Source of the DNA: Tabrizicola oligotrophica
GTDB lineage: Bacteria > Pseudomonadota > Alphaproteobacteria > Rhodobacterales > Rhodobacteraceae
DNA length: 64,000 nucleotides
Direction of reading: 5' to 3'
Assembly: GCF_011008935.1 (NCBI RefSeq)
Contig: NZ_JAAIVJ010000007.1
Coordinates: forward strand, 1 to 64,000
The notes below the pieces were generated by a model. It saw only the letters and a program-made list of their open reading frames with translations. It had not been told where the DNA came from and ran no database searches. Positions 9,613-42,098 of the stretch are shown here, piece by piece. Numbering within the stretch: the first letter of the stretch is position 1; each line of letters starts with the position of its first letter. A program made the translations under genes and the position numbers.

Positions 9613-10531
9613 AGCGAACCTGGGCACCCGCGCCGGATTTGTTGCCCTGATCGGCGAGCCGAATGCCGGGAAATCGACGCTTCTGAACCGCATGGTCGGG
9701 GCCAAGGTGTCGATCGTCACCCACAAGGTGCAGACCACCCGCGCCCGGATTCGCGGCATCTGCATCGAGGGGCAAAGCCAGATCGTGTTTGTCGACACCC
9801 CCGGCATCTTCCGCCCGCGGCGACGGCTGGACCGCTCGATGGTCAAGGCGGCCTGGGGCGGGGCTTCGGATGCCGATATCGTCGTGCTCTTGATCGAGGC
9901 GCATCGCGGGCTGACCGAAGGGGCGCAGGCCATCATCGACCGGCTGCGCGACGAGATGCCGCGCGGCAAGCCGGTGGCGCTGGCGATCAACAAGATCGAC
10001 CGGGTGAAGGCCGAAGCGCTGCTCGCCTTGGCGCAGCAGGTGAACGAGGCCTTCCCCTTTGCCAAGACCTTCATGATTTCGGCCGAGCGCGGCCATGGCG
10101 TTGACGATCTGCGCGAGTGGCTGGCGGCCGAGGTGCCAGAGGGTCCGTGGTTCTATCCCGAGGACCAGATCGCCGATCTGCCGATGCGGATGATCGCGGC
10201 CGAGATGACCCGCGAAAAGCTGACGCTGCGCCTGCATGAGGAATTGCCCTATCAGCTGACCGTCGAGACCGAGAAATGGGAGGACAAGCCCGACGGATCG
10301 ACCCGGATCGACCAGATCGTCTATGTCTCGCGCGATGGGCACAAGGGTATCGTGCTGGGCAATGGCGGCGAAACGATCAAGGCCATCGGTGTGGCGGCGC
10401 GGGCCGAGATTTCGGCCTTCCTTGACCGCAAGGTGCACCTGTTCCTGCAGGTGAAGGTGCGTGAGAACTGGCAGGAAGAGGCCGAGCGCTATTCCGAGAT
10501 GGGGCTGGATTTCAAGGACGGCGATGCCTGA
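9605..10531 (+). CDS. era: GTPase Era
   Basis: Era is an essential GTPase that binds 16S rRNA and assists 30S maturation. The 308-residue protein shows G1 [10 protein letters not shown]3 DTPG, G4 NKID and a C-terminal KH domain with the loop [14 protein letters not shown]. The start overlaps rnc by eight bases. Confidence 0.97.
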
Positions 10532-10539
10532 GCCGCAGA

Positions 10540-10559
10540 CGGAATTTGCGCAAATTCCG
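10540..10559. repeat. Perfect 20-bp palindrome after era
   Basis: CGGAATTTGCGCAAATTCCG reads the same on both strands and lies nine bases after the era stop. It could fold as an 8-bp stem with a GCGC loop and act as a weak terminator, or be a protein-binding site. No T-run follows. Confidence 0.6.
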
Positions 10560-10589
10560 GGCCATTCGGCCGGGGTTGCGCGCCTGGCA

Positions 10590-10632
10590 GACGTCGGAGC
10601 CTCCGGCGGGGATATTTGGTCCAGTGTGAAAG
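10590..10632 (+). repeat. Probable copy of a Rhodobacterales intergenic repeat motif
   Basis: The segment contains a small cggag/ctccg inverted repeat followed by GGCGGGGATATTTGG and a GTGTGAAAG tail just before the DUF1491 start. From memory, a CCTCCGGCGGGgaTATTTgg-type motif recurs in intergenic regions of this order. I found only this copy in the window. Confidence 0.4.
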
Positions 10633-10633
10633 C

Positions 10634-10972
10634 ATGAGCGTGCGTCTGGCGACCGGGGTCTGGGTGGCGGCCTATCTGGCGCGGCTGCGGGTGGCGGGGC
10701 TTGCGGCCTATGTCGTGGCCAAGGGCGATCCGACGGCCGGCGCGGTGGTGGTCAAGCTGGTGCGCGCCGGGGGGCGGGCCAAGGCCATGGCGCGGCAGTT
10801 CGATTTCGGCAGCGGCGCGCGGCTGTGGCGGGTGCTGGCCGAGGGTGACGAGCGCGAGGTGGATGCGATGCTGGCGCGCGAGCGGGGACGCGACCCGGAT
10901 CTCTGGCTGATTGATGTCGAGGATGCGGACGGCATGGGCCTGCTGGATGCCGAGGGTCTGAGCGCGGGCTGA
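10634..10972 (+). CDS. DUF1491 family protein
   Basis: The 112-residue protein matches the alphaproteobacterial DUF1491 pattern: an N-terminal basic helix ending YLARLRVAGLAAYVV, then GDPTAGAVVVKL, and a C-terminal DPDLWLIDVED. Function is unknown. It regularly sits near era and recO in this order. I chose ATG 10634; an upstream GTG 10616 is possible but lies in the repeat-like segment. Confidence 0.85.
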   Translation: MSVRLATGVWVAAYLARLRVAGLAAYVVAKGDPTAGAVVVKLVRAGGRAKAMARQFDFGSGARLWRVLAEGDEREVDAMLARERGRDPDLWLIDVEDADGMGLLDAEGLSAG

Positions 10973-11011
10973 GCCTTGCCATTTGCCCCGTCTCGGGCCG
11001 ATAGTCGGGGC

Positions 11012-11731
11012 ATGGATTGGCGGGACGAGGGCTGCATCATCGCCGTGCGGGCGCATGGCGAGAGTGCGGCGATCATCGAGGTGTTCACGGCGGTACATGG
11101 CCGCCATGCCGGTGTGGTGCGCGGTGGCGCGTCGCGGCGGATGGCGGCTGTGTTGCAGCCAGGCTCGCAGGTGGCGGTGGCCTGGCAGGCGCGACTGTCG
11201 GAGCATATGGGCGTGTTCTCGGTCGAGCCCCTGCACCTGCGTTCGGGGTTGATGGCGGATCGGCTGGCTTTGGCGGGGTTGAACGCGATTTGCGCACTCT
11301 TGCATGTGGCCCTGCCGGAACGGGTCGCGCATCCGTTGCTGTGGCGCTCGACGATGGCGCTTCTCGCGGCTCTGGAGTATGGGCCGGGCTGGCCGGAGGA
11401 GTACCTGCGCTGGGAGGCGATGTTACTGGAAGAGCTGGGCTTTGGTATGGATCTCGGGCGCTGCGCGGTGACGGGCGCGCGCGAGGGTCTGGTCTATGTC
11501 AGTCCGAAAACCGGGCGGGCGGTCAGTGCCGCAGGCGCCGGGGACTGGGCGGCGCGGCTCTTGCCCTTGCCGGCAGTGCTTTTGGGGCAGGGGCGTGCGA
11601 GCGCGGAGGAGTTGGCGCAAGGCTTTGCCGTGACCGGGCATTTCCTGGCCAGAGGGCTGGAGCCGGTGTTGCAGGGCCGCCCGTTGCCCGCCGCGCGCGC
11701 CCGGCTCCTGGATCTGTTGGCGACGCTTTGA
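11012..11731 (+). CDS. recO: DNA repair protein RecO
   Basis: RecO works with RecR in the RecFOR pathway, loading RecA on gapped DNA. The 239-residue protein begins MDWRDEGCIIAVRAHGE, the usual RecO OB-fold start, and contains the helical core with LERVAHPLLWRS-like and RWEAMLLEELGFGMDL motifs, then RCAVTGAREGLVYVSPKTGRAVS. Length and context (era-DUF1491-recO) fit. I chose ATG 11012; the frame is open to 10976. Confidence 0.92.
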   Translation: MDWRDEGCIIAVRAHGESAAIIEVFTAVHGRHAGVVRGGASRRMAAVLQPGSQVAVAWQARLSEHMGVFSVEPLHLRSGLMADRLALAGLNAICALLHVALPERVAHPLLWRSTMALLAALEYGPGWPEEYLRWEAMLLEELGFGMDLGRCAVTGAREGLVYVSPKTGRAVSAAGAGDWAARLLPLPAVLLGQGRASAEELAQGFAVTGHFLARGLEPVLQGRPLPAARARLLDLLATL

Positions 11732-11780
11732 GGTCGCAGACAGAGCCGGCCTTGCCGCCGGAACCGGATAAGTTGCGCGC

Positions 11781-12998
11781 ATGGCATTGCGTTACATCCC
11801 CCTGCATCTGAAGCACCCGGCGACTCCGAAGATCACCGATTTTGCAATCTTGTCCGGCCTTGAGGCGGCGGTGCGCGGCACGCTGATCTCGACCGTGCCG
11901 ATTGCGGTCTATGATGCCTTCGGCTCGGCCAGCAATTTGTCAACGGTTTATCTGGTGGCCGGGGTCATCACGCTGTTCTGGGGCCTGATGGTGCCTAGAC
12001 TGACCCAGATCTTTCCGCGCCGCTGGGTCTATTCGGCGGGATGCGGGCTCTATCTGGTGGCGATGGCGCTGTTCATTCTGGGCACGGCGCTGTCAGTGCA
12101 GCTGGCGATCCTGATTTCGGCCATGGCGACGGTGACGACCTTTGTCTGCCTGAACGCCTATGTGCTGGATTATGTCGCCCGCGCCGATCTGGGAAGAACC
12201 CAAGGCCAGCAGATGGTCTATGCCGCCGTGCCCTGGGCGGTGGGGCCTTTGACCGGGGTCTGGCTGCGCGGGCTTTGGGCGCCGCTGCCGTTTCTGGTGG
12301 CGGGGGGCTTTGCGGCGCTGCTGCTGGCGGTGTTCTGGTATCTGCGGCTGGGCAACGGCAAGCAGATTGCCCGCGCCAGGGGGCCGGCGGTCAATCCGCT
12401 GGCCTATCTGGGGCGGTTCTTCCAGCAGCCGCGCCTCATCATCGGCTGGCTTTTTGCAGTGTTCCGCAGCTGTGGCTGGTGGGTCTATGTCGTCTATGTG
12501 CCGGTCTTTTGCATCGAGAGTGGGCTGGGGGACAAGCTGGGCGGGGTGATGCTGTCGGTCAGCAATGCGACGCTTCTGATCTCGCCTTTGCTGGCTGGGA
12601 TGGCGCGGCGGCTGACCGTGCGGCGCACCATGCTGTGGACGCTTGCCTATTGCACGCTGCTGTTCACCGGGGCGACGGTGTTTTCCGCCTTCCCCCATGT
12701 CGCGCTGGCGCTGCTGTTCCTGTCCTCTTTCGGGCTGGTGATGCTGGACGTGACCGGCGGCCTGCCCTTCCTGATGTCGGTCAAGCCGTCGGAGCGGGCC
12801 GAGATGGCTGCGGTCTATTCCAGCTTCCGCGATGTTTCGGGCATCCTGACGCCGGGGGCGGCCTGGCTGGTGCTGCTGGTGTTTCCGCTTTCAGGCATCT
12901 TTGCCGCCAGCGGGGTGGCCTTCGGCCTGTCCTGGTGGCTGGCGCAGAACCTGCATCCCCGGCTTGGCACGCCGCGCCCGTCGCGGGGCGGGGCGTAA
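11781..12998 (+). CDS. Major facilitator superfamily transporter
   Basis: The 405-residue protein has about twelve predicted hydrophobic segments and MFS-like positive loops, for example between TM2 and TM3 (LTQIFPRRW) and around the middle (ARRLTVRRTM). The substrate cannot be read from the sequence. It lies 49 bases after recO on the same strand and converges on the acyl-CoA dehydrogenase gene, with 22 bases between the stops. Confidence 0.85.
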   Translation: MALRYIPLHLKHPATPKITDFAILSGLEAAVRGTLISTVPIAVYDAFGSASNLSTVYLVAGVITLFWGLMVPRLTQIFPRRWVYSAGCGLYLVAMALFILGTALSVQLAILISAMATVTTFVCLNAYVLDYVARADLGRTQGQQMVYAAVPWAVGPLTGVWLRGLWAPLPFLVAGGFAALLLAVFWYLRLGNGKQIARARGPAVNPLAYLGRFFQQPRLIIGWLFAVFRSCGWWVYVVYVPVFCIESGLGDKLGGVMLSVSNATLLISPLLAGMARRLTVRRTMLWTLAYCTLLFTGATVFSAFPHVALALLFLSSFGLVMLDVTGGLPFLMSVKPSERAEMAAVYSSFRDVSGILTPGAAWLVLLVFPLSGIFAASGVAFGLSWWLAQNLHPRLGTPRPSRGGA

Positions 12999-13020
12999 GG
13001 GCTTTGGTCGGGGCCGGGGC

Positions 13021-14685
13021 TCAGTCCAGCAGCCGCCGGGCGATGACCTGCGCCTGAATTTCGGCCGCGCCTTCGAAGATGTTCAGGATGCGGGCGTCGC
13101 AGAGGATGCGGCTGATCTGGTATTCCAGCGCAAAGCCGTTGCCGCCGTGGATCTGCAGCGCGTTGTCGGCCGATGCCCAGGCCACGCGGGCGCCGAGAAG
13201 CTTGGCCATCCCCGCCTCAAGGTCGCAGCGCTTGTCGTGGTCTTTCTGCCAGGCGCTGAAATAGGTCAACTGCCGGGCGACCATGATTTCCACTGCCATC
13301 ATCGCGAGTTTCGAGGCGATGCGCGGAAACTCGATCAGTGATTTGCCGAATTGCTTGCGGTCCTGGGCATATTTCATGCCGGTTTCCAGCGCCGATTGCG
13401 CCACGCCGATCGCCCGCGCGCCGGTCTGGATGCGGGCGGATTCGAAGGTCTGCATCAGCTGCTTGAAGCCTTGGCCGGGAACCCCGCCGAGAAGGTTGTC
13501 GGCCGCCACCTTGAACCCGTCAAAGCCCAGCTCGTATTCCTTCATGCCGCGGTAGCCCAAGACCTCGATCTCGCCGCCGGTCATGCCGGGGGTGGGGAAG
13601 GGGGCCGCGTCGGTGCCGGGGGTCTTTTCGGCAAGGAACATGGAAAGGCCGCGGTAATCGGAGGTCTCGGGATCGGTGCGCGCCAGAAGCGTCATGACAT
13701 GGGTCCGGGCGGCGTGGGTGATCCAGGTCTTGTTGCCGGTCACTTCCCAGCCTTCGTCGGTGCGCACGGCGCGGGTGCGCAGGGAGCCGAGGTCGGAGCC
13801 GGTATTCGGTTCGGTAAAGACAGCGGTGGGCAGGGTTTCGCCGCTGGCCAGACGCGGCAGCCATTTCGCCTTCTGTTCCGGCGTGCCGCCGCATAGGATC
13901 AGTTCGGCGGCGATTTCCGAGCGGGTGCCGAGCGAGCCGACGCCGATATAGCCGCGCGAGAGTTCTTCGGAGACCACCACCATCGAAGCCTTGGACAGGC
14001 CGAACCCGCCGAATTCCTCGGGAATGGTCAGGCCGAACACGCCCATTTCCGCCAACTCCTGAATGATCCCCATCGGGATCAACTCGTCGTTGAGGTGCCA
14101 TTGATGGGCAAAGGGAATGACCTTTTCTTCGGCATAGCGGCGGAACTGGTCGCGGATCATTTCCAGTTCCTCGTCCAGCCCCGTCGCGCCAAAGGTGGCG
14201 CGGCCGTGGTTGTCGCGCATCAGCGCCACCAGCCGGGCACGGGCGGCGGGGGTGTTGCCTTCGGCCATCAGCCGCGCTGCTGCTGCGCCGGGCGCGGGCA
14301 GGGCCACCCCGAGGTCTTGCAGCCGGGCCATTTCGCCCTGGCTCATCGGGATGCCGCCGCGGATCTGGCTCAGGTATTCGCCATAGGCGATCTGCAGCAA
14401 CAGGCCTTCCATCTCGCCAAAGCTGCCCGCCTCTTGCAGCCGCCCGGCCCAGGCACGCATCTGGCGCAGCGCCTCGGTATAGGTGGCCAGCCACGACAGG
14501 CTATGCGCCGCGAACTGATGCTCCTCCAGTGCAGCGCCGGAAATCTTGCCACCAACCGTCACCATGCCGCGCAGCGCCTCGCGCGCCTCGGCAAACAGTG
14601 CCTCGACTTCGGGCAGGGCCTCGGCGGTCAGCGTCAGGAGATCGTCCAGAAGCGGCGCGGTGGGGGTGCGGGCATCGAGAGCCAT
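13021..14685 (-). CDS. mcd: Acyl-CoA dehydrogenase, probable (2S)-methylsuccinyl-CoA dehydrogenase
   Basis: The 554-residue length is about 170 longer than a normal acyl-CoA dehydrogenase because of an N-terminal helical extension (residues 1 to about 160). The dehydrogenase core follows: FTEPNTGSDLGSLRT, NKTWITHAARTHVM, RIQTGARAIGVAQSAL, KSLIEFPRIASKLAMM and HGGNGFALEYQISRI. The extended form with this core is characteristic of methylsuccinyl-CoA dehydrogenase of the ethylmalonyl-CoA pathway, used by Rhodobacter relatives to assimilate acetyl-CoA without isocitrate lyase. Electrons would pass to Etf, encoded at 28456-30128. The assignment rests on length and recalled similarity; another extended dehydrogenase is the alternative. 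Confidence 0.78.
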   Translation of the reverse strand: MALDARTPTAPLLDDLLTLTAEALPEVEALFAEAREALRGMVTVGGKISGAALEEHQFAAHSLSWLATYTEALRQMRAWAGRLQEAGSFGEMEGLLLQIAYGEYLSQIRGGIPMSQGEMARLQDLGVALPAPGAAAARLMAEGNTPAARARLVALMRDNHGRATFGATGLDEELEMIRDQFRRYAEEKVIPFAHQWHLNDELIPMGIIQELAEMGVFGLTIPEEFGGFGLSKASMVVVSEELSRGYIGVGSLGTRSEIAAELILCGGTPEQKAKWLPRLASGETLPTAVFTEPNTGSDLGSLRTRAVRTDEGWEVTGNKTWITHAARTHVMTLLARTDPETSDYRGLSMFLAEKTPGTDAAPFPTPGMTGGEIEVLGYRGMKEYELGFDGFKVAADNLLGGVPGQGFKQLMQTFESARIQTGARAIGVAQSALETGMKYAQDRKQFGKSLIEFPRIASKLAMMAVEIMVARQLTYFSAWQKDHDKRCDLEAGMAKLLGARVAWASADNALQIHGGNGFALEYQISRILCDARILNIFEGAAEIQAQVIARRLLD

Positions 14686-31110: not shown

Positions 31111-31139
31111 TTGAGAAAAGCGAAGCCTCGATCTATAGT
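31111..31139 (+). promoter_or_regulatory. Probable promoter of the NRPS gene
   Basis: TTGAGA (31111-31116) and TATAGT (31134-31139) are 17 bases apart, each matching five of six sigma-70 consensus bases. This is the strongest promoter match I saw. Transcription would start near 31146 and give a leader of about 110 bases. Confidence 0.6.
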
Positions 31140-31255: not shown

Positions 31256-34200
31256 TTGGCCGAAGAAGACACGCAACCTCGAGGGTCAGTGACGATACAG
31301 GCAAAGCAAGCAACGCCGGGCTCCGGTCTGGCGACGGCCATGCAGCAGGGCTTGCTTCTGGAAAGCAGCCATGCCGGTCGCCCTTGGGCAAATCTTGAAC
31401 AGATCATTGTCGAGGGACCGAGGGCCGCGTTCGATCCCGCTCGGTTAAGCGCGGCCTGGCTCACGCTTGCGGCGCGTCACGATGCGCTGCGCATGCAGTT
31501 TGAACAGGATGGGCAGGGCCATATCCTGCAACGGGTGCGCCCTGAACCAGAGCTGACCTTTGCAGTGGCCAAAGGCGGGCCGGCCGATCTGGAGGCGTTT
31601 CTGGCCGCCGACCGCCTCGCCGGGGTTGATCCGGAAGCCGGTCCGGGATGGCGTGTGACCCTCTTGGCCGGGCCGCCCCGTTCGGTCATGGTCTGGACCA
31701 TCCACCACGCGCTGATCGATGGCACCTCGATGGCGATCGTGCTGGAAGAGCTGGGCCAGATCCTGCAAGGCCAGGACACCGGTCCCGTCCCGCCACTGCA
31801 CTTTGCCGAATATTCCACGATCCTGTCGCGCCAGGACAAGACGGCGGCAAAGGTCTTTTTCGCCGGGATGTTTGGCGACCGGACCGCCGCGCCGGGCTTC
31901 GTTCCGGTCAGCGTCGCGCAACCCGGTCGCATGGCGGTTCTGACGCAGGCCTTGCCGCGCGGTGAAAGCGATGCCTTGCGGGCTGCGGTCCGCGCTGCCG
32001 GAGCCACCACCCTGAACGCGGTTCAGGGAGCCTGGGCGCTGGTGCTGTCGCGTTGGACCGGGCAGCCGGAAGCCTGCTTTGGTCTGGTTGATTCCGGTCG
32101 AAGGGTCATCGACGGGCTGGACGGGACGGTGGGGTGCCTGATCTCGACCTTGCCGATGCGGTTGCCGATTGACGGGACCCAGACGGTCGCCGGTTTCCTG
32201 TCGTCCCTGCGCAAGCTGACCGTCGAAATGCGGCAGCATGCCCATGCCAGTTCCACCGAGGTTCGGCGCTGGGTCGGATTGCCGGGCGGCGCCGTGCTGT
32301 TCGACACGATCGTGATGCATGCCCATGCCTCGCTGGACCGGCGGATGCGGCAGGTGGGTGGGGTCTGGGCCGATTGGTCGGTGCGGCTGGTCGAAGAAGG
32401 CACCGCCGCCGCGACTTTGGCCGTGACCGACGATCCCGAAATCCAGATCCTGCTGGAACATGATCCGTCGCGGATCGGGCATGACCGGGCGCGGGCGCTG
32501 CTGGCGCAGGTCGCGCGGCTTCTGGCCGGCATGGCCTCTGCAGCGGGGCAGGACCGCCTTGGCGAGTTGGAGATGATTTCCGCGCAGGAGCGGGCAGAGC
32601 TGCTTGCCCTGGGCGAGCCGCAGTCGACCTTGCCGGAGACCCAGTCCTGCGTTGCCCGCCGCTTCGAGGCGGTGGCGCTGGCCCGGCCCGACGCCACAGC
32701 GATCATCGAGGCGGAAACAGGGCTTGTATTCAGCTTTCGTGACCTTGACCGATGCGCGAATGCGCTGGCGCTGCGGCTGCAAGAGGCGGGCGTTGCGCCC
32801 GGCGACGTGGTAGGCATCCGCCTGTCGCGCGGGGCGGCCCATATCGCGGCCCTGTTCGCCACGCTCAAGCTGGGGGCGGCCTTCCTGCCGCTTGATCCCG
32901 ATTTGCCGGAGGTCTGGCTTTCGGGGCTGGTGCACCGCGCCGGGGCCAAGGCGGTGGTCGGCCTTGACGGGCGCTCGCTGGGGGCGCCGGTGGAACTGGT
33001 TGCCGACCCCGCCGAACGGGCGGAACATCCGCCCGCCCGGCCCCCGGTTCAGGCAGACCGCATGGCCTATGTGCTGTTCACCTCGGGCTCGACCGGGGAA
33101 CCCAAGGCGGTGCGGGGGGTGACAGGGGCGCTGTCGGCCCATGCCTCTGCGACCATCGCGGCCTTTGGGCTTGGCCCTGCGGACCGGGTGATGCAGTTCG
33201 CCGGCCTTGGCTTTGACGTTGCGCTGGAGGAAATCTTCCCGACGCTGCTGGCCGGCGCGACCGTCGTGGTGCGGAACGAGGCCGCCGCCGGATCGGTTCG
33301 GGCCTGTCTGGACCTGATGCAGCAGCACGGCGTCACGGTGGCGAACCTGCCGGCCAGCTTCTGGCATGTCCTGGTGGATGACCTGGCCGCGACGGGCCAG
33401 CGCCTGCCGGGGGCCTTGCGCCTGATGGTGACGGGAAGCGAGCGCATCCGTCCGCAATCGCTGCGCCGGTGGCGCGTGATCGCACCGGATGTCGACTGGA
33501 TCAACGGCTATGGCCCGACCGAAACGACCATCACCGCGACGGCCCTTGTCTTGCCGAAAGGTGCCGCGCTGCCGCCTGACATGGCCGAAGTGCCGATCGG
33601 GCGCCCGCTGGCCCATGCGCGTGCCATCCTGCGGGCGCCTGATGGCAGCCTCACCCCCCGGGGCGGTCGGGGCGTGCTGTGGATCGGCGGGCCGGCCGTG
33701 ACAGGGGGCTATCTGGGCGATGCGCCCCGCACCGAGGCGGTGTTTCAGCCCGATCCGTACCATCCGGGCGGGCGTCTTTATTGCACTGGCGATCAGGCGC
33801 GGTGGCGAAATGATGGCACGCTTGATTTTCTGGGGCGTGGCGACCGGCAGGTCAAGCTGCGCGGGCACCGGATCGACCTGCATCAGGTCGAGCAGCTGTT
33901 GGCCGGTCTGGACGGGGTCAGGCAGGCCCATGTTGCCCTGTCGGCGGTCGGCGGCACGGATCGCCTGCTTGGCTGGGTCGTGACCGACCCCGGTGTCGAG
34001 CTGCGCAGCCTTGTGCGTCAGGCCAATCGACGCCTGCCGCGCGTCATGGTGCCCCGGCTGATCGCCGTCGATCGGTTCCCGGTCGGTGCCAATGGCAAGA
34101 TCGACACCCGCGCGCTGCCGATGCCTCCGGCCGAGGCGCCACCGACCAAAGCCCCAGCAGATGACGCCCTGACACGCAGGATCGCGGCCTGCATGGCCGA

Positions 34201-35170
34201 AGTGCTGGAGCGCGATGCCGTGTCCTCAGACGCAAGCTTCAGTGATCTTGGCGGGGATTCCCTGCTCGCCCTGCGGCTGGTCAGCCTGATCGAACAGCGC
34301 ACCGGCCATGTGCTGCAAACCTCGGACCTGCACAACAATGGCAGTGCCGCCGCGCTGGCGCAGATGTTGCAGGGCGGGTCGTCGAAGCCGCATTACATCA
34401 TTCCGATCCAGCCGGGGGGCACCCGACCGGCGTTCTTTGCCGTCCATGTGCTGGGGCGCAATGAAGACCTGTTCCGCCCGCTTGCTGCCGCCCTTGGCCC
34501 GGATCAGCCGGTTTATGGCCTGTCGGTCGGTATTCCGCGCAACCTCGACGACATCAATGTCGAACGTACCGCCCGGCTTTACTTCGAAGAAATCCAGACT
34601 TTCTACCCCGAAGGCCCGGTCGGGCTTGGCGCGGTGTCGATGGCGGCCTATTTCGCCTTTGAACTGGCCCAGCTCTTGCGCGCGGCGGGGCGCGAGGTGC
34701 GGGTCCTGGCGGTGCTGGATGCCATGGGTCCCGACGGCCGGCCCGCGCTTTCCGGGACGGCAAAGCTGAAGGCGCATCTCCTGCAGATCCGCCAGCACGG
34801 GATTGGGCATTTCGCCCGTGTCCTCAAGAACAAGATCGACCGCTACCGCGAGCGGCGCGAGGCGCTGCACAGCGCGCCCGACCAGATCAACCCCATTAGC
34901 CTGATCGCCGCCAATGTCTGCGCGGTCGAGTTCTACCGGCCGCAGCCCTACGATGGCCCGCTTGCGGTCTTTCGCGCCGATCACAGTTTCTGGGACAGCC
35001 CCGAGGCGCTGGCGACGGGCCTGGGCTGGGCCTCGGTGGCGCGCGGGGGCTTGCAGCGCTTCGATCTGCCGGGAACCCATCTGTCGATTCTGGAACCCGG
35101 CAAGGTCGATGTTCTGGCCGGACACCTGAGCCGCCTGATGTCCGGATCTGCCGACCGGCGCGACAGCTGA
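31256..35170 (+). CDS. Single-module non-ribosomal peptide synthetase (C-A-PCP-TE)
   Basis: The 1304-residue protein has one complete module. Condensation domain: catalytic HHALIDG at 150-156. Adenylation domain: FTSGSTGEPKAV at 608, NGYGPTETT, TGDQARW, RGHRIDLHQVE and NGKID at 946. Carrier domain: LGGDSLLAL with Ser1002. Thioesterase: from about residue 1050, candidate Ser1128, Asp1155 and His1275. Size and order resemble EntF, but no siderophore genes are near. Specificity residues aligned by eye to GrsA read D-V-E-N-V-G-G-I-T-K, six of ten equal to a published ornithine code, so a basic amino acid is a tentative guess. No phosphopantetheinyl transferase or exporter is adjacent. The start is TTG 31256 or GTG 31289. 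Confidence 0.93.
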   Translation: MAEEDTQPRGSVTIQAKQATPGSGLATAMQQGLLLESSHAGRPWANLEQIIVEGPRAAFDPARLSAAWLTLAARHDALRMQFEQDGQGHILQRVRPEPELTFAVAKGGPADLEAFLAADRLAGVDPEAGPGWRVTLLAGPPRSVMVWTIHHALIDGTSMAIVLEELGQILQGQDTGPVPPLHFAEYSTILSRQDKTAAKVFFAGMFGDRTAAPGFVPVSVAQPGRMAVLTQALPRGESDALRAAVRAAGATTLNAVQGAWALVLSRWTGQPEACFGLVDSGRRVIDGLDGTVGCLISTLPMRLPIDGTQTVAGFLSSLRKLTVEMRQHAHASSTEVRRWVGLPGGAVLFDTIVMHAHASLDRRMRQVGGVWADWSVRLVEEGTAAATLAVTDDPEIQILLEHDPSRIGHDRARALLAQVARLLAGMASAAGQDRLGELEMISAQERAELLALGEPQSTLPETQSCVARRFEAVALARPDATAIIEAETGLVFSFRDLDRCANALALRLQEAGVAPGDVVGIRLSRGAAHIAALFATLKLGAAFLPLDPDLPEVWLSGLVHRAGAKAVVGLDGRSLGAPVELVADPAERAEHPPARPPVQADRMAYVLFTSGSTGEPKAVRGVTGALSAHASATIAAFGLGPADRVMQFAGLGFDVALEEIFPTLLAGATVVVRNEAAAGSVRACLDLMQQHGVTVANLPASFWHVLVDDLAATGQRLPGALRLMVTGSERIRPQSLRRWRVIAPDVDWINGYGPTETTITATALVLPKGAALPPDMAEVPIGRPLAHARAILRAPDGSLTPRGGRGVLWIGGPAVTGGYLGDAPRTEAVFQPDPYHPGGRLYCTGDQARWRNDGTLDFLGRGDRQVKLRGHRIDLHQVEQLLAGLDGVRQAHVALSAVGGTDRLLGWVVTDPGVELRSLVRQANRRLPRVMVPRLIAVDRFPVGANGKIDTRALPMPPAEAPPTKAPADDALTRRIAACMAEVLERDAVSSDASFSDLGGDSLLALRLVSLIEQRTGHVLQTSDLHNNGSAAALAQMLQGGSSKPHYIIPIQPGGTRPAFFAVHVLGRNEDLFRPLAAALGPDQPVYGLSVGIPRNLDDINVERTARLYFEEIQTFYPEGPVGLGAVSMAAYFAFELAQLLRAAGREVRVLAVLDAMGPDGRPALSGTAKLKAHLLQIRQHGIGHFARVLKNKIDRYRERREALHSAPDQINPISLIAANVCAVEFYRPQPYDGPLAVFRADHSFWDSPEALATGLGWASVARGGLQRFDLPGTHLSILEPGKVDVLAGHLSRLMSGSADRRDS

Positions 35171-38763: not shown

Positions 38764-38790
38764 AAAACCCCCGCCAACGGCGGGGGTTTT
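38764..38790. terminator. Terminator between petC and thiQ
   Basis: AAAACCCCCGCC and GGCGGGGGTTTT form a perfect 12-bp stem with a three-base loop, and CATTTTCC follows. The A and T ends make it work in both directions. The last base overlaps the thiQ stop codon. Confidence 0.85.
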
Positions 38791-39482
38791 CATTTTCCAA
38801 GATAGGTTTGCAGAGCCAGGGGCGGGTTGGCGAAAATCTCTGCCGTCGGCCGCGGGGCATCTGCCACCCCATCGGCCACCAGCACGGTGAGCCCGGCGAA
38901 GCGCCGCGCGTCGGCGGGGTCATGGGTGACCATCAGCACCGTCGCGCCGGTTTCGGCGGCGGTTTCCGAAACCAGATCCAGCATCTCGGCCTTGAGCGCG
39001 GGACCAAGCGCAGCGAAGGGCTCATCCAGCAGAAGCACTGGGCGTGCGCGCAACAAGGCACGGGCCAGCGCCGCCCGGCCGATCTGGCCGCCGGAAAGCT
39101 GACCGGGTTTGCGCGCGCCCAACCCGGCGAGACCGACCCGGGTCAGGGTGGCGTCGATCCGGGCATGATCGGCTTCGGTCAGTCGCAGCCGGGGCGAAAT
39201 TCCAAGGCCCAGATTCTGTGCCAAAGTCAGATGCGGAAACAGGTTCTGATCCTGAAACAGGATCGACAGCGGCCGTTCGCCCGGTGGCATCGGTCCAAGG
39301 TCAGCGCCTTGCCACAACATCCGCCCACCGTAGGGCACAAATCCCGCCAAGGCCATGAGAAGCGTGGATTTTCCCGCTCCGGATGGCCCGATCACGGCGA
39401 CGCGCGCCCCCGCGGGCACCTGCCAGTCGGCGGTCAGGTGAAAATCCTCCTGCCGGATATCCAGCCTGTCAAGCCGCAGCAC
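38790..39482 (-). CDS. thiQ: Thiamine ABC transporter ATP-binding protein
   Basis: The 230-residue ATPase has Walker A GPSGAGKSTL, a Q-loop (LFQDQNLFPHLT), signature LSGGQ, Walker B VLLLDEPFAALG and the switch His in VTHDPADA. The residue after LSGGQ is Ile where most relatives have Arg or Lys. GTG 39482 gives the usual ThiQ length and a 14-base overlap with thiP; ATG 39533 would add 17 poorly supported residues. It is the last gene of thiBPQ, under the TPP riboswitch. Confidence 0.88.
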   Translation of the reverse strand: MLRLDRLDIRQEDFHLTADWQVPAGARVAVIGPSGAGKSTLLMALAGFVPYGGRMLWQGADLGPMPPGERPLSILFQDQNLFPHLTLAQNLGLGISPRLRLTEADHARIDATLTRVGLAGLGARKPGQLSGGQIGRAALARALLRARPVLLLDEPFAALGPALKAEMLDLVSETAAETGATVLMVTHDPADARRFAGLTVLVADGVADAPRPTAEIFANPPLALQTYLGK

Positions 39483-41007
39483 GGGTCGCCCCCCATCGGT
39501 CAAAGGCCCAGAACAGGGCAAAACTTGCGCCAACCAGCACCAGCGATGCTCCGGCGGCCGCTTCCATCCGATAGGCCCCCATCAGGCGCTGGATCAAGAG
39601 CGGCAGCGTCTCGGTTCGCGCGCCGGCGAACAGCGCGATAACCCCAAGGTCGCCCATCGACAGGGCTGCCGCAAGGCCTGCGCCAAAACCAAGCGGCCGG
39701 GCCAGACGCGGCAGGATGACAAGGCGAAGCCGGGCCGGACCCGAAAGGCCAAGGCTGTCGCAAAGTCGTCCGTAATCGGCCAGCAGGGCGCGGGTCTCGG
39801 GCAGCAGCAGGCGGAAGAGATAGGGCAGGGCCATTGCGGCGTTGACCGCCAGCGTGACTGGAAGCGCCAGCATCTCGGGCGACATCTGGGGATGGATAGC
39901 AAGAAAAAGCCCGGTCCCCATCACCAGACCCGAAGCGGAAAGCGGCAGCATCGCGGTCAGTTCCAGCCAGCCTTGTCCGCGGGCAACCGCAAGCGCGAGC
40001 GTCAGCGCGATGCCGCTGGCCAGCGCCGCTGACAGCACCGCAAGCCCGAAGGATCGCCCGAGCGCCGGCCATAACCCTGCTGGCAGATCTGTCAGGCCGG
40101 GCAGCCCACGGAGGAGGATCGCCAGAAGCGGACCCATCAGAAAGGCGATGGCAAGGCCGATTGTCACCCCGTCCGCGCCGCGCCGCCAGCCCTTGGGGGC
40201 GGGAATGGCGATGTCACGTCCCAGACCGGGGCCGAAAACCGCCGCTGTGGTCAGCCGGAAGCTGGCCAGCGTTATCGCCGCACAAAGCCCGAATTGCAGC
40301 GCGGCCAGCAGGGCGGCGCGACCGAGGTCGAACTCGAAACGCAGGGCCTGGTAGATTGCCAGCTCAAGGGTCGAGGCCTTTGGGCCGCCGCCAAGGGTCA
40401 GGGCCACGGCGAAACTGGTCAGGCAGAGGAGAAAGACGGTCGCAAGCGCCCCCGGCAAGAGGCTGCGCAGCATCGGCGCTTCCAGATGGCGAAACTGCGC
40501 CACAGGCGGCATCGACAAGGCTTCGGCCAGGCGGAAGCGCTCGGCCGGGATCGCCTGCCAGCCTTGCAGCAGGATGCGGGCCACAAGCGGCAGGTTCAGA
40601 AAGACATGGGCCAGCACGACGCCGTGCAGGCCGAAGATCGACAGGGTGGGCAGCCCGAGCGCGCTTATCGCCGCGTTCACCGGGCCCGCGCGTCCAAAAA
40701 TGGCCAGAAGGCCCAGCACCGCGACCACAACCGGCAAAAGGAACGGCGCCGCCAGCAGCCGGATCAGGGCCAGCCGGCCGGGAAACCGCCTGCGGGCCAG
40801 CGCGCGAGCCAGCGGGATGGCGAGAAGGCAGGAGACCAGGGCCGAAAGTGCCGCCTGCAGCAGCGTAAAGCGCAAGGCCGCGCCGTCGGCTGGGCCAAGC
40901 GACCAATCGGTCGCGTGGCCTGCCGTCAGCGCGGCGCTGCCAAGGGTCAGCGCGGCAACGGCCAGCCCCAGAAGGGCGGCGCTTATTGCGCCAGCGCGGC
41001 TTGCCAT
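39469..41007 (-). CDS. thiP: Thiamine ABC transporter permease
   Basis: The 512-residue protein has about twelve hydrophobic segments in two homologous permease halves, each with an EAA-type loop (for example AEALSMPPVAQFRHLEAP, and CDSLGLSGPARLRLVILP in the second half). This double-length permease architecture is typical of ThiP. It overlaps thiB by 25 bases and thiQ by 14. Confidence 0.9.
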   Translation of the reverse strand: MASRAGAISAALLGLAVAALTLGSAALTAGHATDWSLGPADGAALRFTLLQAALSALVSCLLAIPLARALARRRFPGRLALIRLLAAPFLLPVVVAVLGLLAIFGRAGPVNAAISALGLPTLSIFGLHGVVLAHVFLNLPLVARILLQGWQAIPAERFRLAEALSMPPVAQFRHLEAPMLRSLLPGALATVFLLCLTSFAVALTLGGGPKASTLELAIYQALRFEFDLGRAALLAALQFGLCAAITLASFRLTTAAVFGPGLGRDIAIPAPKGWRRGADGVTIGLAIAFLMGPLLAILLRGLPGLTDLPAGLWPALGRSFGLAVLSAALASGIALTLALAVARGQGWLELTAMLPLSASGLVMGTGLFLAIHPQMSPEMLALPVTLAVNAAMALPYLFRLLLPETRALLADYGRLCDSLGLSGPARLRLVILPRLARPLGFGAGLAAALSMGDLGVIALFAGARTETLPLLIQRLMGAYRMEAAAGASLVLVGASFALFWAFDRWGATRAAA

Positions 41008-41966
41008 TCCGCCACCGCGGCCTCGCGCATTGCGCCGGCCTCGTCCTGCGGCAGAAGCAGCGACGTGCCCGGCTGGATCAGGGTTTCAAACCCCTTGGGC
41101 AAGCCCGCCGCCAGCGGGTTCGCCGGGTACATCCAGTTCGTCGTCGGGATCACGCCCTGCGCCTCTTCGGACACCAGATAGGCAAGGAAGGCATCGGCCA
41201 GCGCGGGCTGGTCACTGGCCGCCAGCTTTGCCGCGACTTCGATCTGCAGGTAATGGCCCTCGCCAAAGGCCGCAGCCGCCTTGCCGTCATCGCTTTCGGC
41301 AATCAGGTGATAGGCGGGCGAGGTGGTGTAGGACAGAACCAGGTCGGCCTCGCCTTCAAGGAACATCCCGTAGGCCTCGGACCAGCCGGGGGTGACGGTG
41401 ACGATGTTGTCCTTCAGTCCCGTCCAGATTTCGGCCGCGCGGTCGCCATAGGCCGACTTGACCCACATCACCAGACCAAGGCCCGGGGTCGAGGAACGCG
41501 GGTCCTGGATGACGATCTTCAGGTCGGAGGCGGCCAGTTCCTCGAAGGATTTCGGCGGGTTGGCCAGGGTCTTGTTGTGGACAAACGCGAACCAGCCCCA
41601 GTCGAACGGCAGGAAATTCGCGTCCTCGTAAGGGGTCGGCAACCCGGTCACGGCGGGCTGGCCATGGGGCGCAAAGAGGCCGGTCGCCGCGGCCTGCGCA
41701 GTCAGGTTGGTATCAATCCCCACCACCACGTCGGCGGCGCTGGCAGGGCCTTCAAGCTGCACGCGCGCCAGAAGGGCGGCGCCGTCGCCAGCGGTCACGA
41801 AGCGCAGATCGCAGGCGCAGGTGGTTTCGAAGCCCTTTTCGATCGCAGGGCCGGGGCCCCATTCCGAGGCGAAGCTGTCATAGGTGTAAACGTCAAGCAC
41901 GGGCGTCTCGGCCATTGCCATGCTGGCAAGGCAAACAAAACCCGCAGCGAGAGGGATGGTCTTCAT
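40983..41966 (-). CDS. thiB: Thiamine ABC transporter substrate-binding protein
   Basis: The 327-residue protein has an N-terminal signal peptide (IPLAAGFVCLASMAMAETP) and a binding-protein fold with the ThiB/Fbp-type start LDVYTYDSFASEWGPG. It binds thiamine or its phosphates in the periplasm. ATG 41966 follows GGAGG at 41976-41972 and lies about 50 bases downstream of a TPP riboswitch. The frame is open upstream into the riboswitch, but that part is not coding. Confidence 0.93.
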   Translation of the reverse strand: MKTIPLAAGFVCLASMAMAETPVLDVYTYDSFASEWGPGPAIEKGFETTCACDLRFVTAGDGAALLARVQLEGPASAADVVVGIDTNLTAQAAATGLFAPHGQPAVTGLPTPYEDANFLPFDWGWFAFVHNKTLANPPKSFEELAASDLKIVIQDPRSSTPGLGLVMWVKSAYGDRAAEIWTGLKDNIVTVTPGWSEAYGMFLEGEADLVLSYTTSPAYHLIAESDDGKAAAAFGEGHYLQIEVAAKLAASDQPALADAFLAYLVSEEAQGVIPTTNWMYPANPLAAGLPKGFETLIQPGTSLLLPQDEAGAMREAAVAEWQAALAQ

Positions 41967-42014
41967 GGGTTCCTCCAGTTGCGACGGTCGAGGTCGGGAT
42001 GGAGGGCTTCCATG

Positions 42015-42098
42015 CACCTTCCCTCCGCCGGTATGAGCCGGTTCAGGTTCAACGGGTCCGCATTGCTGCATCTCAGCCTTTTCAGGCACCCCGAGGTG
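42015..42098 (-). promoter_or_regulatory. TPP riboswitch (THI element) controlling thiBPQ
   Basis: Read on the minus strand, the hallmark blocks appear in order: CTCGGGGTGCC, CTGAGA, GGACCCGTTGAACCTGA and ATACCGGCGGAGGGAAGG. These form the conserved aptamer core that binds thiamine pyrophosphate. Downstream, CCCTCC (42006-42001) could pair with GGAGGG of the aptamer end (42026-42021) or with the thiB Shine-Dalgarno GGAGG (41976-41972), suggesting translational control. Confidence 0.93.

Follow-up and report, generated by a model that had tools for sequence, protein, structure and literature searches.

The gene at 31256..35170 (forward strand) of the DNA analysed here, the first 64,000 nucleotides of contig NZ_JAAIVJ010000007.1 of Tabrizicola oligotrophica (the window), encodes a nonribosomal peptide synthetase (NRPS) of 1304 residues, with condensation (C), adenylation (A), peptidyl carrier (PCP) and thioesterase (TE) domains. 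The initial annotation regarded this C-A-PCP-TE protein as an orphan. Here we propose, with a probability of roughly 0.68, that it acts in trans, carrying out condensation and termination for a hybrid polyketide synthase (PKS)/NRPS pathway whose other enzymes are encoded on another contig, C4. It is probably not an orphan, and the orphan status is unsupported because the genome encodes a partner synthetase system at another locus, which is co-inherited with it.

A search of the source genome for carrier domains identified a second assembly line, at approximately 207-219 kb on contig C4 (L031 7065-19126). It consists of a PKS of 2172 residues with the organisation KS-AT-KR-DH-ACP-TE, a GT2 glycosyltransferase, and a protein of 1500 residues (L031 7065-11567) in which a formyltransferase (F) is joined to an A domain, which a luciferase-like monooxygenase (LLM, TIGR04020) interrupts, and to a PCP (T). 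This protein is here called F-A(LLM)-T. The line is adjoined by a Wzy_C-like protein, which falls under the Pfam cut-off, and a WecG-family glycosyltransferase. The specificity code of F-A(LLM)-T is DILQ[MLF]GM[IV]WK in 36 homologues, close to the glycine code DILQLGLIWK, and the N-H-D residues of the formyltransferase are retained in 35 of the 36 proteins. F-A(LLM)-T is an initiation-type module and has no C domain of its own. In NRPS systems, F domains have been described solely in initiation modules (PMC8949500), and F-A(LLM)-T should therefore require a C domain downstream. The window protein is the sole Condensation match in the source genome (3.85 Mb, 99.98% complete), and C-A-PCP-TE is likewise the lone C-domain protein in most of the genomes that carry it.

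The two proteins are inherited together. The comparison spans about a thousand related genomes. In the family sample F-A(LLM)-T is present in 144 of 397 genomes (36%), as against 11 of the 12 that have C-A-PCP-TE, and in all 11 in which the C-A-PCP-TE gene is intact. Fisher tests give p = 9e-5 for all C-A-PCP-TE genomes and 1e-5 for intact genes only; as the genomes are related and not independent, such p-values are indicative and overstate the evidence, which counts against the proposal alongside the points gathered below. The one genome without F-A(LLM)-T is that of a congener (G001), in which C-A-PCP-TE is a pseudogene with two in-frame TAG codons and a frameshift (L033 8210-12129); another congener (G002) has both genes intact. 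A hold-out comparison, for which the prediction was fixed beforehand, found F-A(LLM)-T in all 11 new C-A-PCP-TE genomes of the order sample, compared with 22 of 65 controls without C-A-PCP-TE (p = 3e-5). It is absent from a Rhodobacterales metagenome-assembled genome (L003) whose completeness is not known, and whose C-A-PCP-TE is a divergent member lacking the catalytic histidine of the C domain.

The genes are also clustered in three other genera. In G364 the order is PKS, GT2, F-A(LLM)-T, phosphopantetheinyl transferase (PPTase), C-A-PCP-TE, with overlapping open reading frames that form an apparent operon, spread across two contigs that share an exact terminal overlap of 121 bases. G130 has a cluster in the same order minus the PPTase. 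In G890, 11 kb separate C-A-PCP-TE from F-A(LLM)-T, and the intervening stretch holds WecG, Wzx, Wzy-like and PKS genes, the whole set fitting within about 20 kb. The absence of the partner where the gene has decayed, the success of the hold-out and the clustering all point one way, to a functional link.

The domains of the window protein have been further analysed. All four lie in the expected order and above the curated Pfam cut-offs: Condensation at residues 27-353 (E 1.4e-37), AMP-binding at 470-820 (9.9e-67), PP-binding at 975-1038 (1e-12) and Thioesterase at 1062-1292 (7.7e-11). In the window, all on the forward strand, the C domain (PF00668) occupies 31334..32605, the A domain (PF00501) 32633..34141, the PCP (PF00550) 34178..34369 and the TE (PF00975) 34439..35131. 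The core motifs HHALIDG (31703-31723, in the C domain), FTSGSTGEPK, NGYGPTE, YCTGD, NGKID, LGGDSL and AVSMA are all readable, the last of these being the TE nucleophile motif in place of GxSxG. The phosphopantetheine site is Ser1002 (34259-34261), and the TE triad is Ser1128 (34637), Asp1155 (34718) and His1275 (35078). This is a genuine, intact, single-module NRPS, and the description of it as a complete C-A-PCP-TE module stands. The start codon is ambiguous: TTG at 31256 is the earliest in frame, and GTG at 31289 is the other option. A weak sigma-70-like promoter match (TTGAGA-17-TATAGT, 31111..31139, forward strand) lies 117 nt 5' of the TTG; one match of this type was observed where 0.3 are expected.

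Homologues of C-A-PCP-TE were found in 12 of the 397 genomes of the family sample and 16 of the 393 of the order sample, and in the class-level sample they are confined to the same family. Twenty-five proteins, the window copy and 24 relatives, were read for specificity code and catalytic residues. The code D[VI]EN[IV]G[GSAC][IV]TK is kept in 24 of them, and the PCP serine and TE triad are invariant in all 25. The exception in the code is the divergent L003 protein (9944-13936), with DFEHNGGITK and a C-domain motif HNALIDA. In four others (L040, L109, L116 and L120) the first histidine of HHxxxDG is replaced (SH, QH, SH and PH respectively), with the second, catalytic histidine kept. Because the code type is so well preserved and the homologues have such a restricted distribution, the C-A-PCP-TE proteins form a family that is limited to Rhodobacterales and has an almost invariant pocket, and the window copy is no random orphan. 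A two-domain sugar-isomerase/dioxygenase-like gene adjoins the L003 copy; by eye it resembles a dehydroshikimate dehydratase, and it was considered as a source of an aryl acid but dropped, as the other loci do not have it.

The C domain resembles the DCL type, as judged by its nearest solved neighbours. Single-sequence and profile searches both place it closest to the C domains of PvdL (one that follows an epimerisation domain), BacC, McyB, SrfA-C and TycB1, all of them known or expected acceptors of D-residues. In the profile search BacC scores 305 bits (in two stretches), SrfA-C 228 and TycB1 224, and the starter-side references score far less (RzmA-type 81, ObiF1 76, CDA-C1 60). The earlier suggestion of a starter, lipo-initiating C domain is therefore not upheld. 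An LCL-type C domain combined with a partner synthetase elsewhere had been named as evidence that would tell against the orphan view; a candidate partner is indeed encoded on another contig, but the C domain is DCL-like.

The specificity of the A domain was examined through its pocket. The ten residues, placed by means of motifs A4-A5 and the lysine of A10, are D654, V655, E658, N697, V725, G727, G751, I759, T760 and K948. The alignment-derived code, DVENVGGITK, is identical to the one read by eye in the initial annotation. When the A4-A5 segment is searched alone, the best match in the PDB is ApnA A1 (4d4g) with 94 bits, the next being 57, and E658 and N697 of the window protein align with E204 and S243 of ApnA A1. 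These two residues of ApnA A1 have been engineered to change its specificity (PMC7242659). Two codes of measured specificity, DVESIGGIAK (Arg, Tyr, Lys) and DVEDIGGIEK (Arg, Lys) (PMC5311044 Table 2), each agree at 8 of 10 positions with the family consensus DVENIGGITK and at 7 of 10 with the window copy. By comparison, the ornithine code DMENLGLINK agrees with the window copy at 6 of 10. Searches of the literature for exact codes gave no match to the family codes or to DMENLGLINK, and returned a serine code only. With ApnA A1 the best pocket match and the measured codes closer than the ornithine code, Arg or Lys is the favoured substrate, and ornithine is possible. The predicted basic specificity is thus strengthened, but the evidence points more to Arg/Lys than to ornithine as the preferred residue.

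On the basis of these observations, the following scheme can be suggested. The carriers would be armed by the Sfp-type PPTase (4PPT_N and ACPS, 220 residues) found at 188 kb on contig C2 of the source genome (G000; L002 1159-1821). No AcpS was detected at the threshold used, and because this Sfp-type enzyme is the only ACPS-family match in the genome, it may serve the fatty acid and NRPS/PKS carriers alike. F-A(LLM)-T would load, formylate and possibly oxidise glycine, as its domains and code suggest. The DCL-like C domain of C-A-PCP-TE would then take up this N-formylated, achiral aminoacyl unit or a longer chain started from it; an achiral glycyl donor would fit such a C domain. The A domain would load an Arg/Lys-like basic amino acid, as predicted from its pocket, and the TE would free the product by hydrolysis, cyclisation or transfer. 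Whereas the domain anatomy, the single C-domain protein of the genome, the co-inheritance and the clustering are observed, the donor, the amino acid, the release chemistry and the order of the PKS and NRPS steps are inferred. Finally, since relatives lie in loci containing Wzx, WecG and Wzy, the product would probably be glycosylated, with a Wzx-like flippase exporting it.

The last step is suggested by the genes that accompany C-A-PCP-TE. A Wzx-like (MOP) flippase lies directly beside it in L034, L040, L043, L112, L116, L117, L118 and L120 (convergent in the last of these), and near it in L035, L109 and L111. This company suggests a glycan-associated product and a role in modification of a surface glycan. 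A more specific version is that the PKS, F-A(LLM)-T and C-A-PCP-TE together make a formylated peptide/polyketide unit for attachment to a surface glycan of the Wzx/Wzy type, the TE serving as the acyltransferase that acts on a lipid-linked sugar. We regard this version as quite improbable; were it true, an exopolysaccharide would be modified nonribosomally by a module encoded at an unlinked locus.

Several observations weigh against a role for C-A-PCP-TE in trans. In most genomes the C-A-PCP-TE and F-A(LLM)-T genes are unlinked, as they are in the source genome (contigs C7 and C4), and a Wzx gene was not seen in the vicinity of either locus in the source genome. One further genome (G003; fragmented, 88% complete) contains F-A(LLM)-T, with C-A-PCP-TE undetected. 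In the family sample 133 of the 144 F-A(LLM)-T genomes lack C-A-PCP-TE, which would make C-A-PCP-TE an accessory partner and require F-A(LLM)-T to act in its absence as well. The PKS carries its own TE, which makes any order of the chain tentative. In addition, F-A(LLM)-T ends in a conserved short basic tail after the PCP (DAMARRRAMRARR-like). Because the tails are alike in genomes with and without C-A-PCP-TE, no pair-specific docking element was found in them, and the tail may be a dock for another partner such as the PKS. The separate TE, the many genomes without C-A-PCP-TE and the unspecific tail would all be consistent with a co-inheritance that is indirect, in which C-A-PCP-TE and the PKS/F-A(LLM)-T line both belong to surface-glycan loci but yield separate small molecules, or modify the same glycan separately, with no transfer of a chain between them. 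The eight loci in which the flippase is directly adjacent have no F-A(LLM)-T nearby, and fit this explanation too. We nevertheless consider it unlikely, given that the genes are coupled in G364 and adjacent in G130, that F domains are described in initiation modules only and need a C domain downstream (PMC8949500), and that C-A-PCP-TE alone supplies that domain in most of its genomes.

It has also to be considered whether the protein could work by itself. Other bacteria have single C-A-PCP-TE modules that accept free acyl donors (AB3403), and the window protein, a complete module with its own TE and a basic pocket and with no synthetase gene beside it, could in principle join an acyl group from acyl-CoA or acyl-ACP to ornithine or another basic residue and release an acyl amino acid or lactam. 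Such a self-sufficient N-acyl amino acid synthetase is, in our view, very unlikely: the C domain is far closer to DCL than to starter types, and the strict co-inheritance with F-A(LLM)-T and the clustering in relatives speak against it. Decay is a further explanation, to which the pseudogene in the congener and the loss of the catalytic histidine in L003 (HNALIDA) lend some colour. The window copy, by contrast, is open and has every catalytic residue, and the conservation of the code type in 24 of the 25 proteins and of the PCP serine and TE triad in all 25 makes a non-functional remnant extremely improbable. Action in trans with the C4 line thus remains the explanation that we favour.

The immediate neighbours of the window gene are a PduO-type cobalamin adenosyltransferase and electron transfer flavoprotein (ETF) genes upstream, and a glutathione S-transferase (GST) and petABC downstream. 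These flanks are common only to the gene's own genus, and on this ground all four were rejected as members of the pathway. The earlier observation that there is no partner, tailoring or siderophore gene nearby therefore holds for the immediate surroundings, but not genome-wide, in view of the PKS/NRPS candidate on another contig. A siderophore role was also rejected, as siderophore genes are absent nearby and the equivalog cut-offs for EntF (270 of 2400 bits) and MxcG (386 of 2300 bits) are far from being reached. Elsewhere in the window, at 38790-42089 on the reverse strand, there is a genus-conserved ATP-binding cassette set (ATPase, permease and binding protein), which on reading resembles a thiamine-type importer.

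The window protein shares its domain order and intact motifs with C-A-PCP-TE synthetases of the EntF/AB3403 type, and the profile of its TE matches AB3403 (4zxh), and EntF weakly. It differs from them in its pocket code, in its DCL-like C domain and in having no aryl- or acyl-ligase partner nearby. The DCL C domains of SrfA-C, TycB1, PvdL and BacC are the closest solved structures to its C domain; unlike those systems, the source genome has no epimerase or upstream module for a D-residue, and an achiral glycyl donor is proposed instead. ApnA A1, from the anabaenopeptin synthetase (Arg/Tyr/Lys), gives the best PDB match to the pocket segment, with codes at 8 of 10 to the consensus. It is, however, the loading domain of a multimodular cyanobacterial line, unlike the window module, and the C-A-PCP-TE family is set apart by the residues N at position 278 and T at position 331.

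The F-A(LLM)-T/PKS line itself has counterparts in the literature. Gene sizes and order fit the NRPS-like/T1PKS hybrids of Rhodobacterales, as reported for Roseibaca domitiana (BMJDCPAI_00765-00767; PMC10584327) and for the PKS/NRPS genes of Phaeobacter inhibens (Inhi_1972/1974; PMC4062626). Judged by gene sizes, order and numbering, without alignment, the published hybrid appears to be the same cluster (PMC10584327, PMC4062626). The published cluster, listed as one of unknown product, was reported from 18 of the 37 species analysed (PMC10584327). A separate C-A-PCP-TE partner is not mentioned in the consulted parts of these accounts (PMC10584327, PMC4062626), and no report of one was found in the open literature, most subscription journals being outside that search. 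The hybrid ranks with the most frequent of the uncharacterised Rhodobacterales clusters, being present in 36% of the family genomes sampled, and it looks incomplete because the condensation domain is missing. In some genomes the matching condensing and terminating module is at a second locus, which cluster-finding programs would call a separate orphan. The two-locus system proposed here gives a predicted building block, an Arg/Lys-like residue, and its link to flippase and glycan genes suggests a product at the cell surface and not simply a secreted peptide.

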